Part shown: in pieces, positions 32,912-38,290 of the stretch
Layout: the number at the start of each line of letters is the position of its first letter
Numbering within the stretch: the first letter of the stretch is position 1
Source: Saprospiraceae bacterium
Lineage (GTDB): Bacteria > Bacteroidota > Bacteroidia > Chitinophagales > Saprospiraceae
Length of the DNA stretch: 64,000 bases
Assembly: GCA_027488935.1 (NCBI GenBank)
Contig: JAIYAP010000054.1
Coordinates: forward strand, 1-64,000
Direction of reading: 5' to 3'
Notes under the pieces: model-generated
What the model was told of the DNA's origin: nothing
What the model saw: only the letters and a program-made list of their open reading frames with translations
Databases searched by the model: none
Made by a program: the position numbers and the translations under genes

Positions 32912-33331
32912 ATGGAAAAAAAGTATAGCAACAAAGACATCACGGTCGTTTGGAAGCCCAACGCCTGCATTCACTCGGCTCTTTGCTGGCATGGATTACT
33001 GGAAGTATTTGATCCGCGTAAAAAGCCCTGGATCAATTTGGAAGCCGCTGATACAGAACGTATTATCACCCAAATTGAAAAATGCCCATCGGGTGCTTTG
33101 TCCTGGGTAAAAAATGAAGCGGGTAAACCTGAAGTGGAGCAAGTTGACGTAGAAACCATTGTGGAAACCATTCCGAATGGTCCGCTGATGGTGTACGGCA
33201 ACATTGCGGTAAAAGACGCGGCGGGCAATGAAACGCACAAAAACAAGGTGACGGCATTTTGTCGTTGTGGCGCTTCAGGGAATAAGCCGTATTGTGATGG
33301 TACGCATCAGAAGATTGGGTTTGAGGGGTAG
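32912..33331 (+). CDS. CDGSH iron-sulfur domain protein with ferredoxin-like N-terminal domain
   Basis: A 139-residue protein. Residues ~1-65 are a Fer4_19-type domain (NACIHSALCWHGL ... KCPSGALSW); residues ~105-135 a CDGSH zinc-finger-like [2Fe-2S] site, CRCGASGNKPYCDGTH. Proteins with this architecture are probable redox or cluster-transfer proteins. It starts 2 nt after the GH109-type gene, so is likely co-transcribed, although a functional link is unclear. The ATG at 32912 is preferred over a TTG six nt upstream. Confidence 0.9.
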   Translation: MEKKYSNKDITVVWKPNACIHSALCWHGLLEVFDPRKKPWINLEAADTERIITQIEKCPSGALSWVKNEAGKPEVEQVDVETIVETIPNGPLMVYGNIAVKDAAGNETHKNKVTAFCRCGASGNKPYCDGTHQKIGFEG

Positions 33332-33377
33332 GATGCGCATCATAAAATGATCGGAGAAGTATCACTTACAACAATCT

Positions 33378-33629
33378 TCATTTAGAAAAAAAATTATCCA
33401 ACGCTTTCAGATCGTGTTGCAGATCATCTGTGGTAAATAAGATATCGACTCCTTGTTCTGATAGCACAGATTGGAACTCCAGGCGCGTGATGCCGGACCA
33501 TCTGGCAGCCTGCGCAAGGGACATTTTTTTCTTTTTATAAAGCAAAACAGCCAAATCAATCTTCAATTCTCCAATAGAATAACCCGATTGCTCTTGAAGC
33601 ACTGATTCTGGTATTTCAATAGTGATCAT
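33378..33629 (-). CDS. UPF0175 family protein
   Basis: An 83-residue protein with the UPF0175 layout: ITIEIPESVL at the N-terminus, then ELKIDLAVLLYKKKKMSLAQAARWSGI with a short HTH-like helix and RLEFQSVLSEQGVDI. Such proteins are often antitoxin-like partners of a DUF3368 PIN-type protein, but no partner is adjacent, so this looks orphaned. 33630-33935 beyond it holds no convincing gene, only the terminator of the STAND gene. Confidence 0.85.
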   Translation of the reverse strand: MITIEIPESVLQEQSGYSIGELKIDLAVLLYKKKKMSLAQAARWSGITRLEFQSVLSEQGVDILFTTDDLQHDLKALDNFFSK

Positions 33630-33839
33630 GGTAAGTTTTTTTTACAAAAATAGGGTGATTTGGGGTTAAAAGCAATATTCGCCCTTTTCCTGATATCTTG
33701 GATAAGGTTGGATCGAGTGCTTGATGATAGTAAAATGGCTTTTACTTGTGCCTATATTATAAAAATACTGATTTAAACATTGTCCGATCAAATAAATTTT
33801 GACCGCCAGAGGTAGTATAATAAAAACGCTCTTGGCGTC

Positions 33840-33874
33840 AAAAAATGCGTGGCGGGCTCGTCCCTCCCCCCGCC
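33840..33874 (-). terminator. Terminator of the EAD-STAND operon
   Basis: On the minus strand GGCGGG and CCCGCC (33869-33874 / 33851-33856) form a GC-only stem, followed after ACGCA by six T (33845-33840). It lies about 60 nt beyond the stop. In DGR loci a GC-rich structure also follows variable regions, so a second role is possible. Confidence 0.6.
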
Positions 33875-33935
33875 TCACATTTTCTCCGCCACTTGCTATT
33901 GCTCATAAGTAAAGTTGGAAGGAACTGCAGACTGA

Positions 33936-36593
33936 CTACGGGACGAAGACCAGGCGGAAGCCTATAAAGTTGTAGCGGTTGTCGGGATTGATGTTGAAGC
34001 GGTTCGCCGTCCGGCAGCGCCCCGCGTTGCTGCTCCAACTCCCGCCGCGCAGAACACGGCCGGAAGTGCTGCTTTTTGCTCCGGCGGGAGATGAAACCAC
34101 ACCTTGCTTTTGGCATTCATTATAGTACCCGGCATCGTACCAGTCCCAACACCATTCGAATACATTACCGCTCATGTCATAAATGCCGATGCCGTTATCC
34201 TTTTTCGCTTTAACCGGGTGCGTTCTGCCGTTATTGTCATAAATCCGGTTCAGGTCCCAATCGCCGGAGAGCGGTTTATCGCCAGAGTTTTCCCAAAACC
34301 AGCCTGCCGTATCTAAGGTATCGCTTCCAGCAAATAGGGTTCTCGGGGCACCTACCCCGGCCCGGGCTGCTAGTTCCCACTCCGCTTCAGTAGGCAACCT
34401 GAATCCTTTAGCAGCCGCATCCAATGATACTTTCCATTTTAGAAAGTCATTTTGGACTTGGCTATCAGGGTCGCTGTTTGTGACTTTCTGTATTTCATAA
34501 GCAGGTGTTGCGCCTTGCAGCCCGTTTAGCCAATTGGCGTATTCCAGGGTCTCGTACCAATTGACGTTCACTACGGGGTGGTCGCCAAAGCGCCCCCAAT
34601 AGGGCGTCCGGCTGGCCAAGCCTCTTTCCATAGCCTCACAAAACAAGGCAAACTGGTAAAAAGTGATGGGGGTGGCGGAAATCTTGTATTCAGAGAGTTG
34701 TATCTGGTGCAATTGCTCATTTGATTGATGTTTCCACTCCGCCGAATCGCTGCCCATCTCGAAAATACCATCTGTGCCCAAGGGGACAGAAATCAGTTCC
34801 GGGTAGTAGCGCTCCTGATTTTTTTGGAAAGATGGGAGTTTACGGAGCAAGGGCTCGAACTGACTTCGCGTGCTCCAACCTTCTTGTACGCATTGCCGTA
34901 AGGCCGGTTCCAGTCCGGCCTCAGGACTCAGTTGGAGCAATAACTGAGCCGCCATTCTAGCTAAGGCTGGTCTTCTTCCTCCTTCAGCAAAAAAGAATAA
35001 CAATTCTGAAATAGGTTCAATCAATTCTCGCTTTTTAACACCATGATCCACATCAATCTCTACTGCCACTTGCATTTTTTCGAGGGCTTTATCATGATCC
35101 AAATTATAAATCATCGAAATACCCAGTCCAGAAAATGACTCGAATATTGATTTATTTTTTTCGCGAAGTTCTTCGAGTGCTCTGGTTGCCTTGTCCGCCA
35201 ATGCTTTCTCTTTTTCCGCCTGTTGCATAGCCGCCTCTAATTGCTCATCCTTTTCCCGCTGAATACGCAACTCTTCCGCATGTAAATAAGTTTCGCTTTC
35301 CTTTATCCGCCGCTCCAACTCCGGCGGGTATGCCTTGTACTGCTGGTAGGGACGGATGTAGTCCAGGTCTTCCCTCGAAAAGAGCCCCTTCCGCTCCTCA
35401 TACACATTATATATATCTGCCGCTTTTGCCCGCAGCTGCATTTCTTTGGTCAGGTTTTGCCCCACTACCAAGGCCAGCACGTCGTGGCTGATTTCGTATT
35501 GCGTCTGCTCACCCGATTTAATGGTGCGCAGGATGCGGCGCTGCTCCAAATCGCGGAGCAGCTTGGAGAGCGGTTTTTTCAGAACGACATCCTTAGAATC
35601 TAGATCTTTTTGCAGCGCTTCTACGCTCATTTGAAGTTTGGTATGCCGATCCGAAATCATGGCGGCTAAAGCTTCTAAGGGTGCCTTTTCGCCATAGATT
35701 GGGTCTAGTTCGTCGAGCTGTTTGTTGAGGAAACTGTCTAACACCCCGGCGAGGTCGTCCTTGTCCTTGATTAGGCCCTCCCGGAGCATAGGAAGTGCAT
35801 CGTTCTTTTTTTCATCGGAGGCCCTGTCCCACAATTCGCTCAAAAACACCTGCACGTGGGCCAGTTCGATTTCACGGCTCAAATCAGGCAATTTGCTGAG
35901 GATACTTTCAGCCAGTTGCGCACTGTCTTCTACGCGGAAATACGAGCGGTAGTGCGCCGCGTCCAGCGTTTCGCGGATCACTTCCTTCACGTTTTCCTTC
36001 CGCATTTTTTCAAGGCGGAAGCGGTGCTGGAAAATACTGGGGCATAGGGGCTCAAATTCCGACAGGTGGCCAATGAATTCTTCCCGCATGATGAGCATCA
36101 CCCGACAGGGCACTTTGTAGCGGATGAGTTGGTTGAGTCGGGTAAAAAAGCCCCGTTTTTCGGCATCGCTGCCGGAAATGAGCAGTTCCTCAAACTGGTC
36201 GAACAAGAGGTACACTGGCTGGTACCGTTCCGAAAACAAACGCTCTATCGCTTGCCCGAAATCGGTTTCCGGGTCGAGCGGCAGTTTGGTTTCCGGGTCG
36301 AGGTCCATTTTTTCTCGTAAAGCCTTGTTAATTTCGCTGAATACGGAAACTGCGATGTCAGCGCCTCGTCGGATGGTCAGGGCAAACCAGTCCGCATCGG
36401 AGAACTGGTTGCGCAATCCGCACTCCACGAGGCTGGTTTTCCCGGCACCTGAGGGTCCGTACACCAACAGGTGCTTCACGCCGCTGAGGGCCTGGTACAA
36501 GTCGTTGGTTTCCTTTTCCCGGCCGAAGAAAATATCGTTGTCTTCCTGCTTATAAGAATCCAGGAACTTGAAGGGAGCAGTAAGCTGGCTCAT
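33936..36593 (-). CDS. STAND NTPase with C-terminal FGE-sulfatase domain
   Basis: An 885-residue protein. Residues 1-380 form a STAND/nSTAND ATPase: Walker A GPSGAGKT (46-53), Walker B LLFDQFEE (129-136), MREEF sensor region (169-173) and the family's EISHDVLAL (367-374). Residues ~436-482 are a coiled coil, then a helical stretch to ~600. Residues ~600-885 are an FGE-sulfatase (SUMF1/EgtB-like) domain: MGSDSAEWKH, NVNWYETLEYANWLN, RLPTEAEWELAARAG, YDMSGNVFEWCWDW. The last 41 residues resemble a DGR variable region (see findings). Its start overlaps the upstream EAD gene by 4 nt. Such STAND proteins sense a trigger and signal through oligomerisation; a defence role is inferred from architecture. 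Confidence 0.9.
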   Translation of the reverse strand: MSQLTAPFKFLDSYKQEDNDIFFGREKETNDLYQALSGVKHLLVYGPSGAGKTSLVECGLRNQFSDADWFALTIRRGADIAVSVFSEINKALREKMDLDPETKLPLDPETDFGQAIERLFSERYQPVYLLFDQFEELLISGSDAEKRGFFTRLNQLIRYKVPCRVMLIMREEFIGHLSEFEPLCPSIFQHRFRLEKMRKENVKEVIRETLDAAHYRSYFRVEDSAQLAESILSKLPDLSREIELAHVQVFLSELWDRASDEKKNDALPMLREGLIKDKDDLAGVLDSFLNKQLDELDPIYGEKAPLEALAAMISDRHTKLQMSVEALQKDLDSKDVVLKKPLSKLLRDLEQRRILRTIKSGEQTQYEISHDVLALVVGQNLTKEMQLRAKAADIYNVYEERKGLFSREDLDYIRPYQQYKAYPPELERRIKESETYLHAEELRIQREKDEQLEAAMQQAEKEKALADKATRALEELREKNKSIFESFSGLGISMIYNLDHDKALEKMQVAVEIDVDHGVKKRELIEPISELLFFFAEGGRRPALARMAAQLLLQLSPEAGLEPALRQCVQEGWSTRSQFEPLLRKLPSFQKNQERYYPELISVPLGTDGIFEMGSDSAEWKHQSNEQLHQIQLSEYKISATPITFYQFALFCEAMERGLASRTPYWGRFGDHPVVNVNWYETLEYANWLNGLQGATPAYEIQKVTNSDPDSQVQNDFLKWKVSLDAAAKGFRLPTEAEWELAARAGVGAPRTLFAGSDTLDTAGWFWENSGDKPLSGDWDLNRIYDNNGRTHPVKAKKDNGIGIYDMSGNVFEWCWDWYDAGYYNECQKQGVVSSPAGAKSSTSGRVLRGGSWSSNAGRCRTANRFNINPDNRYNFIGFRLVFVP

Positions 36594-38290
36594 CGGGACG
36601 CGGATTTAAAGGGTTTAAACACCTGTTCCAGTTGCTCGAATAATTCATCGAGCCGAGGCTGCTGAATATTCTGGTTTTTTACCGGGAGTCGCTTGTTGGA
36701 GGGGATGGGACGGCCTTCGTATTCCAGTTCATTTTTGTATTGTGCAAAAAGGTATTGCCGCCCGCCTCTTTCTTGTCCGATGTAATAAAAAATCTCCGGT
36801 GTTTGGGTCGATTTTTCTGCAAATACGCTTTGATCTACAATTAGGGGCGAAAGCGAAATATAAACGCCGGAGTCCTGGATGTTTTCGAGGCAGTCCGACA
36901 TGTTATTGCCCCGGAAAAGCAGCACACTTTGGTTGTAGGTGAACATGCCTTCGATAGAGTGGGCGCTGTAATCTTCGCCTTCGGTCAGGGCTTCTGCGTA
37001 CATACCGTGCAATTCGCCGTAGAGGTGTATAAAATTTTTGGCCGTACCAAGGCGGTAATTCAAACTGATGTCTTTGATAGAAACGAGGCGGTATTTGGCC
37101 AAAAAGGCCAGTTTGCGCAGCCAATACACCAGACCAGTCAGGTATTCGTCCAGCAGTTGTTCGAGGGCTTCTCCTTCTGGTTGTTTGTTTTCCAACAACA
37201 GATTACGGTGTTTTTCCAGGAAAAGGGCTGTACCGTACAAATCGCTGCCGGTATCGGTTAGTTCTGCCACAAAGTCATTGATTTCTGGCATAAAAGCGGA
37301 TGCTTTAGGTAGCAAGTCGGTCGAAAGCAGCAACAGGTTGAGGTAATCATAGCGGGGCTGGCTGGTAGCATCCATTTGAATAAATCCGGCAATGGCCTCA
37401 TTTTGCGCATATTCCTGGCGTTGAAACACCTGGGCCACCTGGATATAGCACAAATAACGCAGGGTACTTTGATAAGCCTCGGCCATAAAAGCCAGTCGAC
37501 GGAGGCTGCGTTCCTGCCCGGCCGGGGTCCCCATTTTTTGTAAAAACGCCTCAATGAGCCAGCCATAGTGTTGGAAAATGGCCCAGGGCTTGGCACCCAC
37601 CACTACGCCTTGTTTCAAGAGCTCCTGCCGCAGACTTTGCACCCAGCGGTTTTCGTCGGTGACCAGGTTTTGGGCCAAATCCTCCGGGAGCGCATTGCTA
37701 TGTTTCGATTGTCCGACAATAAACTCAAAATTGGCATTGGTGATAGCACCGATATTATAAATCTTTTCTGCAGTTTGGATGCTTTGGGTCTGTTGTTTTT
37801 CCAACAGGGCTTGCAAGGCTTCCAATTTGCGGAGGATTTCCTGTGTTTCGCCGTTGACGGTTACCGTTATGATACTGTCGCTGACATCTTGGATGACAAT
37901 TTTATCGCCAATATGCACATCGCCACCGGCTTTAATATCGCCGGTAACCACATTTTTACTATTTACGATGGAAATAGCCTGCTCCAATTCTGTCCGAAGG
38001 GCAGCAACTGCCGGGTTTGGGGAGGTTTCCGAGGTATTCTCCTCTATTTCCCGCAGCAGCTCCAGCAATCCATTTCGGATCTGATTCTGCTCCATATCCG
38101 CCTCGGTTTTGCTGACCGTTCCAAGTCGAATTTGCTTTCTAATATCGTGAAAACGACCAGATTGCAACAAAACTTCATCCAGTTTTGGGCTATTCTCAAG
38201 CAGTACCCGAAACTTTTCGAGTGCAGCAGGTAATTCGTTTTGGGCTATGAGATCGCGAATTAAAATAAAGAAGGGTTTATCTGATTCCAT
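36590..38290 (-). CDS. Effector-associated domain (EAD11-like) protein
   Basis: A 566-residue protein. Residues ~1-82 match the EAD11 pattern: helical, IRDLIAQNELPAALEKFRVL then RLGTVSKTEADMEQNQIRNG and LLELLREIEE. EADs are small death-domain-like adaptors of bacterial conflict systems. Residues 110-140 are Gly-rich and beta-forming (VVTGDIKAGGDVHIGDKI), a pattern common after EADs. Residues ~145-175 are a coiled coil; the rest (180-566) is a large mainly helical domain I do not recognise. First gene of the operon, overlapping the STAND gene by ATGA, so the two products are made together and probably act together. Confidence 0.8.
   Translation of the reverse strand: MESDKPFFILIRDLIAQNELPAALEKFRVLLENSPKLDEVLLQSGRFHDIRKQIRLGTVSKTEADMEQNQIRNGLLELLREIEENTSETSPNPAVAALRTELEQAISIVNSKNVVTGDIKAGGDVHIGDKIVIQDVSDSIITVTVNGETQEILRKLEALQALLEKQQTQSIQTAEKIYNIGAITNANFEFIVGQSKHSNALPEDLAQNLVTDENRWVQSLRQELLKQGVVVGAKPWAIFQHYGWLIEAFLQKMGTPAGQERSLRRLAFMAEAYQSTLRYLCYIQVAQVFQRQEYAQNEAIAGFIQMDATSQPRYDYLNLLLLSTDLLPKASAFMPEINDFVAELTDTGSDLYGTALFLEKHRNLLLENKQPEGEALEQLLDEYLTGLVYWLRKLAFLAKYRLVSIKDISLNYRLGTAKNFIHLYGELHGMYAEALTEGEDYSAHSIEGMFTYNQSVLLFRGNNMSDCLENIQDSGVYISLSPLIVDQSVFAEKSTQTPEIFYYIGQERGGRQYLFAQYKNELEYEGRPIPSNKRLPVKNQNIQQPRLDELFEQLEQVFKPFKSASR

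Follow-up and report, generated by a model that had tools for sequence, protein, structure and literature searches.

A diversity-generating retroelement (DGR) very probably once scrambled the 3' end of an nSTAND1-FGE gene in the window, i.e. the whole stretch of 64,000 nucleotides of Saprospiraceae DNA that was analysed. We consider it likely that this gene, part of an EAD11/nSTAND1 conflict system, is a DGR target that was orphaned and is now probably frozen. This reading draws on an adenine bias of the differences to the templates (TRs) of relatives, on homologous complete loci, on a hairpin and 3' flank that DGR targets have as well, on searches of the own assembly that found no reverse transcriptase (RT) and no TR, on the grouping of the FGE body with DGR-adjacent targets, on relatives with decayed cassettes and on a second case on contig C44 of the same genome. 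The features of the locus are compiled in Table 1. Genomes, contigs and fetched loci carry G, C and L numbers; G000 is the genome of the window.

Table 1. Features of the target locus (positions in the window).
Feature	Position	Strand	Evidence
Target gene, nSTAND1-FGE, 885 aa	33936..36593	-	ORF list
nSTAND1 NTPase domain of target, aa 7-373	35475-36575	-	Pfam, E 1.9e-36
FGE-sulfatase domain of target, aa 608-882	33948-34772	-	Pfam, E 5.6e-47
Putative variable region (VR) with constant 3' end, last 41 codons	33936..34058	-	adenine test; G062 template 80% over the whole stretch
Variable codons	33966-34034	-	codon comparison with relatives' TRs
GC-rich constant end of VR, initiation-of-homing-like by analogy	33936..33962	-	also present, as far as the stop codon, in VRs and TRs of relatives; DNA search
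Hairpin 3' of VR, apical loop core GGAGGGACG	33834..33893	-	folding; motif comparison
Putative leader remnant, precedes HRDC accessory gene in relatives	33788..33823	-	shuffle-tested homology; inferred deletion edge
Partner gene, 566 aa	36590..38290	-	ORF list
EAD11, N-terminus of partner gene	38042-38260	-	Pfam, E 1.1e-19

The partner gene and the start of the target gene overlap by four bases. nSTAND1 and EAD11 both scored above the Pfam cut-offs; thus, the locus holds a STAND NTPase with an effector-associated-domain partner. EAD11 was the only domain that Pfam recognised in the partner gene, and PADLOC gave no match for it. The target ORF has the C-terminal sequence RVLRGGSWSSNAGRCRTANRFNINPDNRYNFIGFRLVFVP. 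The Pfam FGE-sulfatase match reaches residue 882 of 885, which places the variable region at the C-terminal end of the domain. A PDB search with the target returned the Treponema denticola variable protein 2y3c as top match (E 9.8e-32). A short ORF 3' of the target (window ~33380-33629, minus strand) appears to resemble UPF0175-type small proteins.

The original prediction had described the last 41 residues as a possible DGR variable region on the basis of its codons. For comparison, loci L001-L110 supplied 16 distinct AAC-rich templates, all of relatives, along with 32 other FGE ends. The codons listed as variable were borne out, but the list had missed CGC at 34017-34019, a codon that reads AAC or AAT in 15 of the 16 TRs. 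Twelve columns are AAY in the majority of the 16 TRs, and each of them is NNY in the window. With these amino acids the pattern is unremarkable (P = 0.16 over 13 columns), and the NNY codons were dropped as a weak argument for a DGR. It had also been argued that the AAT and TTT codons need an extra C-to-T change. Mostly this is not so, as relatives' TRs carry AAT (6/16 at the AAT column and 6/16 at the TTT column). In the three TRs used for the adenine test the TTT column has a final C, which leaves room for one C-to-T change at 33966.

For this test the TRs of G017, G018 and G062 served as stand-ins. They were picked for likeness of locus and 3' flank to the window, a choice that counts against the orphan reading; to keep register, an AAC codon was omitted from the G062 template. 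Adenine columns had A in at least two of the three TRs (n = 29), backbone columns an identical non-A base in all three (n = 50). The window was changed at 12/29 adenine columns and at 2/50 backbone columns (Fisher p = 5.4e-5). This agreed with the original prediction, both in its view of the last 41 residues and in its expectation of differences at template adenines. The two backbone differences were third-position changes, 33966 and 33963. Backbone changes numbered 11-26/50 in 17 comparison FGE ends, which had been classed as non-DGR-like or unassigned after earlier comparisons had been seen. Among the 40 fetched regions four were without an FGE end, and a few ends of other length were left unscored. 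The 21 candidate orphans had 0-17/50 and eleven DGR-adjacent VRs 0-16/50 backbone changes, a spread due to the different backbones of other template families. The counts for G017 (1/50) and G018 (0/50) are circular because their own TRs define the columns.

Taken singly, the TRs gave p = 0.002 for G062 (adenine 14/31, other 11/71), p = 0.02 (0.017-0.02) for G017 (13/31 and 14/71) and p = 0.058 for G018 (9/22 and 17/80). A GldK-like FGE end of the own genome also reached p = 0.0036. Because some FGE ends without DGR signs pass p < 0.05, single-TR Fisher tests were judged weak and were replaced as the decisive test by the three-TR backbone test. Sequence comparison supports the reading of 33936-34058 as a putative DGR variable region in an FGE domain (C-type-lectin fold), namely by the differences lying mainly at adenines, the shared 3' end and hairpin, the homologous RT/TR loci and the 2y3c match.

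The hairpin 3' of the variable region had a predicted folding energy of -16.5 kcal/mol (DNA parameters). The 141-nt flank folded with a z of -1.9, which was equalled by 5/200 shuffles. The motif GAGGGACG occurred in 46 distinct contexts of the fetched sequences, 15 behind an FGE end and 31 elsewhere; FGE loci are over-represented in what was fetched, and the counts are therefore no unbiased sample. The distance to the FGE end was 80-92 nt in 14 of the 15 and 125 nt in one. Mean stem scores were 5.07 at the 15 FGE ends versus 3.03 at the other 31 contexts (Mann-Whitney p = 6e-4); at four of the 15 the stems were weak (scores 2-3; L194, L195, L216, L246). The Opitutae MAG locus L173 is among the 15. 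Most DGR loci of other template families were without the GAGGGACG motif. A MAFFT alignment of eight hairpins aligned little beyond the loop; therefore we claim no formal covariation count. An Rfam scan of 33300-34200 gave no match.

A DNA search with 33820-33975 found matches in 13 of 42 genus genomes (E<=0.01, own genome counted). The best outside matches of the 3' flank were in G022 C34 (80 and 76%), G061 (77 and 80%), G062 (78%) and G017 (78%). Altogether, the flank matched DGR targets of G022, G061, G062, G017, G018 and G019. Shuffling was used to delimit this homology. As far as 33788, leader homology was equalled by 1/2000 shuffles for G062 and by 10/2000 for G018; for the other four of six relatives, G017, G022 (two) and G061 C180, it was not significant, which counts against the orphan reading. 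Past 33788 no significant homology to relatives' flanks was found. Homology thus ends near 33788, short of the HRDC accessory start in the relatives; an early idea that it extended to the accessory start codon was trimmed accordingly.

The own assembly comprises 6.28 Mb in 88 contigs and is rated 99.96% complete. The original prediction had noted that the window contains no RT. This was confirmed, and searches of the assembly found none either: RVT_1 had zero matches, and a DGR-RT profile built from 16 relatives' RTs found none at E<=10. As a positive control, the profile detected 18 of the 42 genus genomes at E<1e-100. At 1e-20 there were 21, the extra three having best matches of 1e-29 to 1e-38, and these we took for carriers of RTs of another kind. 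With the VR as DNA query, every match in the own genome apart from the VR itself had E>=0.11, including two at own FGE genes on C22 and C44. A relative's TR as query retrieved only the window copy (E<=0.01). The idea that the gene is a remote target, served by an RT that this genome encodes elsewhere, is thus not supported. A failed search for RT and TR was to refute the DGR reading altogether; it does speak against present activity, but not against a DGR origin. With neither an RT nor a template found in the assembly, we regard the region as most likely frozen.

Relatives carry what the window has presumably lost. The G018 locus is complete, with HRDC accessory, RT and TR next to the target, as is that of G034 with three FGE ends, HRDC, RT and one AAC-rich TR within 8.5 kb. 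The G017 homolog has 62% identity to the target over residues 5-473 and 41% over 485-885 and is followed by RT and template; there, HRDC is cut to its start, which is in frame with the RT and on through the template (L069 4479-5729, minus strand). G061 C113 kept HRDC and template, and of the RT a match of 23 C-terminal residues (L249 2992-3897); by the profile, the G061 assembly has no DGR RT. In G062 C256, 29 HRDC codons are followed by the template with no RT between them (L241 4213-4738), and the genome has a DGR RT on another contig, C1027. No HRDC or RT match was found in the 3.9-4 kb behind the hairpin in the window, G022 C34 (two targets), G061 C180 and G019 C310, nor in the short flanks of G030 (two, about 1 kb) and L173 (1.3 kb). 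These last flanks, like those of G022 C130 (400 b) and G061 C223 (23 b), were too short or too ambiguous for a place in this series. In the record of the G016 homolog (L071, G016:C298, about 1139-1780) the variable region is a run of N, and the RT beside it is truncated by the contig end.

In a tree of 33 FGE bodies, VR excluded, the window body grouped with those of G021 (DGR-adjacent) and G019 at 98/95, inside a clade of 11 rows (100/99) of which six are DGR-adjacent. The body of the G018 target was outside this clade, a point against the orphan reading; thus, the bodies of these genes have been shuffled relative to their 3' ends.

The own genome has eight FGE domains, two of which, that of the window and that on C44, we claim to be orphan targets. 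The case of C44 is clearer still. Its FGE gene is 87-90% identical over about 1 kb to a G023 target located beside HRDC-RT-TR, and compared with the G023 TR its VR has changes at 20/31 adenines as against 5/68 of the remaining positions (p = 5e-9). Shortly 3' of this VR is a 47-nt inverted repeat, 87% complementary (L106, G000:C44, 8905-9081). A 45-nt inverted repeat also follows the FGE gene on C22 (L109, G000:C22, 9723-9851). C22 and C44 have similar sequences just 3' of the VR, and the MITE-like repeat in each occupies the place of the DGR cassette in relatives.

We propose the following sequence of events. The FGE domain of the nSTAND1 protein would once have been rewritten by a retroelement downstream, consisting of HRDC accessory, RT and AAC-rich template. 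During reverse transcription of the template, adenines would have been replaced at random, and the resulting copy would have been substituted for the variable region. Subsequently, the lineage would have lost everything beyond ~33788 and retained target gene, variable region, constant end and hairpin. The region would then be frozen and the protein may serve as a fixed sensor. We infer that the loss occurred at this locus within the lineage of the window, not prior to a transfer; the order and timing of the loss are deduced likewise. Presumably, DGR diversification is inactive at the window today.

How do other explanations compare? That the FGE domain diverged ordinarily and was never associated with a DGR appears highly improbable. 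The RGGSW...R...GFR frame is indeed general among FGE domains, and FGE ends without DGR signs vary at the same positions; yet the backbone of the window is changed far less than in the comparison ends, a set admittedly chosen afterwards, and ordinary divergence would not account for a non-coding 3' flank and hairpin common to DGR targets. A live target on which RT and template act in trans, from a stretch absent in the assembly (gap, plasmid or phage), is quite unlikely in our view. An assembly of 88 contigs could hide a DGR in a gap, and this counts against the orphan reading. In favour of a live target, both constant end and hairpin are intact, a TR stands without an RT in cis at the G062 locus while that genome has an RT on another contig, and diversification of degenerate loci in trans was proposed for Thiohalocapsa PB-PSB1 in the excerpted part of PMC10907252. 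However, the near-complete assembly yielded neither RT nor template, plasmid and phage collections searched with the window stretch gave no match at 1e-5, and the window VR as well as the own FGE genes at C44, C60, C70 and C22 are all located kilobases from the nearest contig end.

The target may instead have arrived by horizontal transfer or intragenomic duplication without machinery, in which case no deletion at the site need be assumed. This we regard as possible, if doubtful. The nearest relatives of the N-terminal half are proteins of G022 and G033 (69%), with the FGE domain outside their frame, and those of the FGE half are others. For G018, tree and 3' flank are in conflict, and shuffling of modules in DGR targets is described in section 7 of PMC10907252. 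Against it, the leader homology to 33788 in G062 and G018 fits the edge of a lost cassette, although it would fit a duplicated target end as well. Beyond the loss of one cassette, the orphan reading can be extended to the genus, which might repeatedly fix sensor specificities: RT, accessory and template would be discarded, sensor genes and homing sites selected, and a somatic repertoire would become heritable and could be reopened by an RT in trans. We hold this extension to be unlikely.

The neighbouring genes would fit a role in conflict. In G061, a SIR2_2 and EAD11 protein is encoded directly before the nSTAND1-FGE target (L242 127-1269) and is likely an effector for such systems. In other relatives a TIR domain (G037) or EAD11 (G022 and G033) is encoded before nSTAND1; in G017 the gene there has no Pfam match, which is counted against the orphan reading. 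nSTAND1-FGE-EAD targets were proposed as antigen sensors in section 12 of PMC10907252, and EADs are taken to recruit effectors in an excerpt of PMC7159879. The pair in the window may act as sensor and effector in this manner.

Orphan and degenerate DGR targets are already known from T. denticola and Thiohalocapsa, as excerpts of PMC4891356 and PMC10907252 document, and the window adds another. T. denticola isolates without RT and TR still carry TvpA-type target genes (PMC4891356); their variable protein is of the FGE type, too, with an HRDC accessory, which here is seen in the complete loci of relatives. Unlike in T. denticola, the target in the window is an nSTAND1 protein whose gene has an EAD11 gene next to it, and relatives show partly decayed cassettes. 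DGR 6 of Thiohalocapsa PB-PSB1 likewise has targets with nSTAND1, FGE and effector-associated domain, and in degenerate loci of this organism, described in section 7 of PMC10907252, the RT is missing and MITE-like repeats replace the machinery, comparable to the own C44 and C22. PB-PSB1, however, retains other RTs and its incomplete loci still diversify, whereas no RT was found in the genome of the window. In the literature covered, with subscription papers mostly outside its scope, we found no report on this locus or genus.

The data suggest that DGR targets in STAND-type immune genes can outlive the mutator, and that orphan targets are recognisable without it by the adenine pattern and the 3' hairpin. 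Surveys which start from the RT overlook them. With a series from complete cassette via RT stump and accessory stump to bare target at hand, selection on frozen variants becomes testable.

By analogy, constant end and GGAGGGACG hairpin are a candidate homing signal. In the excerpt of PMC3240598, the BPP-1-type hairpin/cruciform has the same layout: a GC-rich VR end and, behind it, a hairpin whose stem varies while its loop is conserved. The phage hairpins reported there have stems of 7-10 bp and 4-nt GRNA loops at 4-34 bp from the VR; by comparison, the stem in the window is longer and interrupted, the loop has about 11-12 nt with GGAGGGACG, and the distance is ~40 nt past the end of the stretch shared by TR and VR. 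In an Opitutae MAG (L173, about 3326) the GGAGGGACG motif is located 85 nt 3' of the FGE end, which hints that the element has spread beyond Bacteroidota, the phylum of the window.
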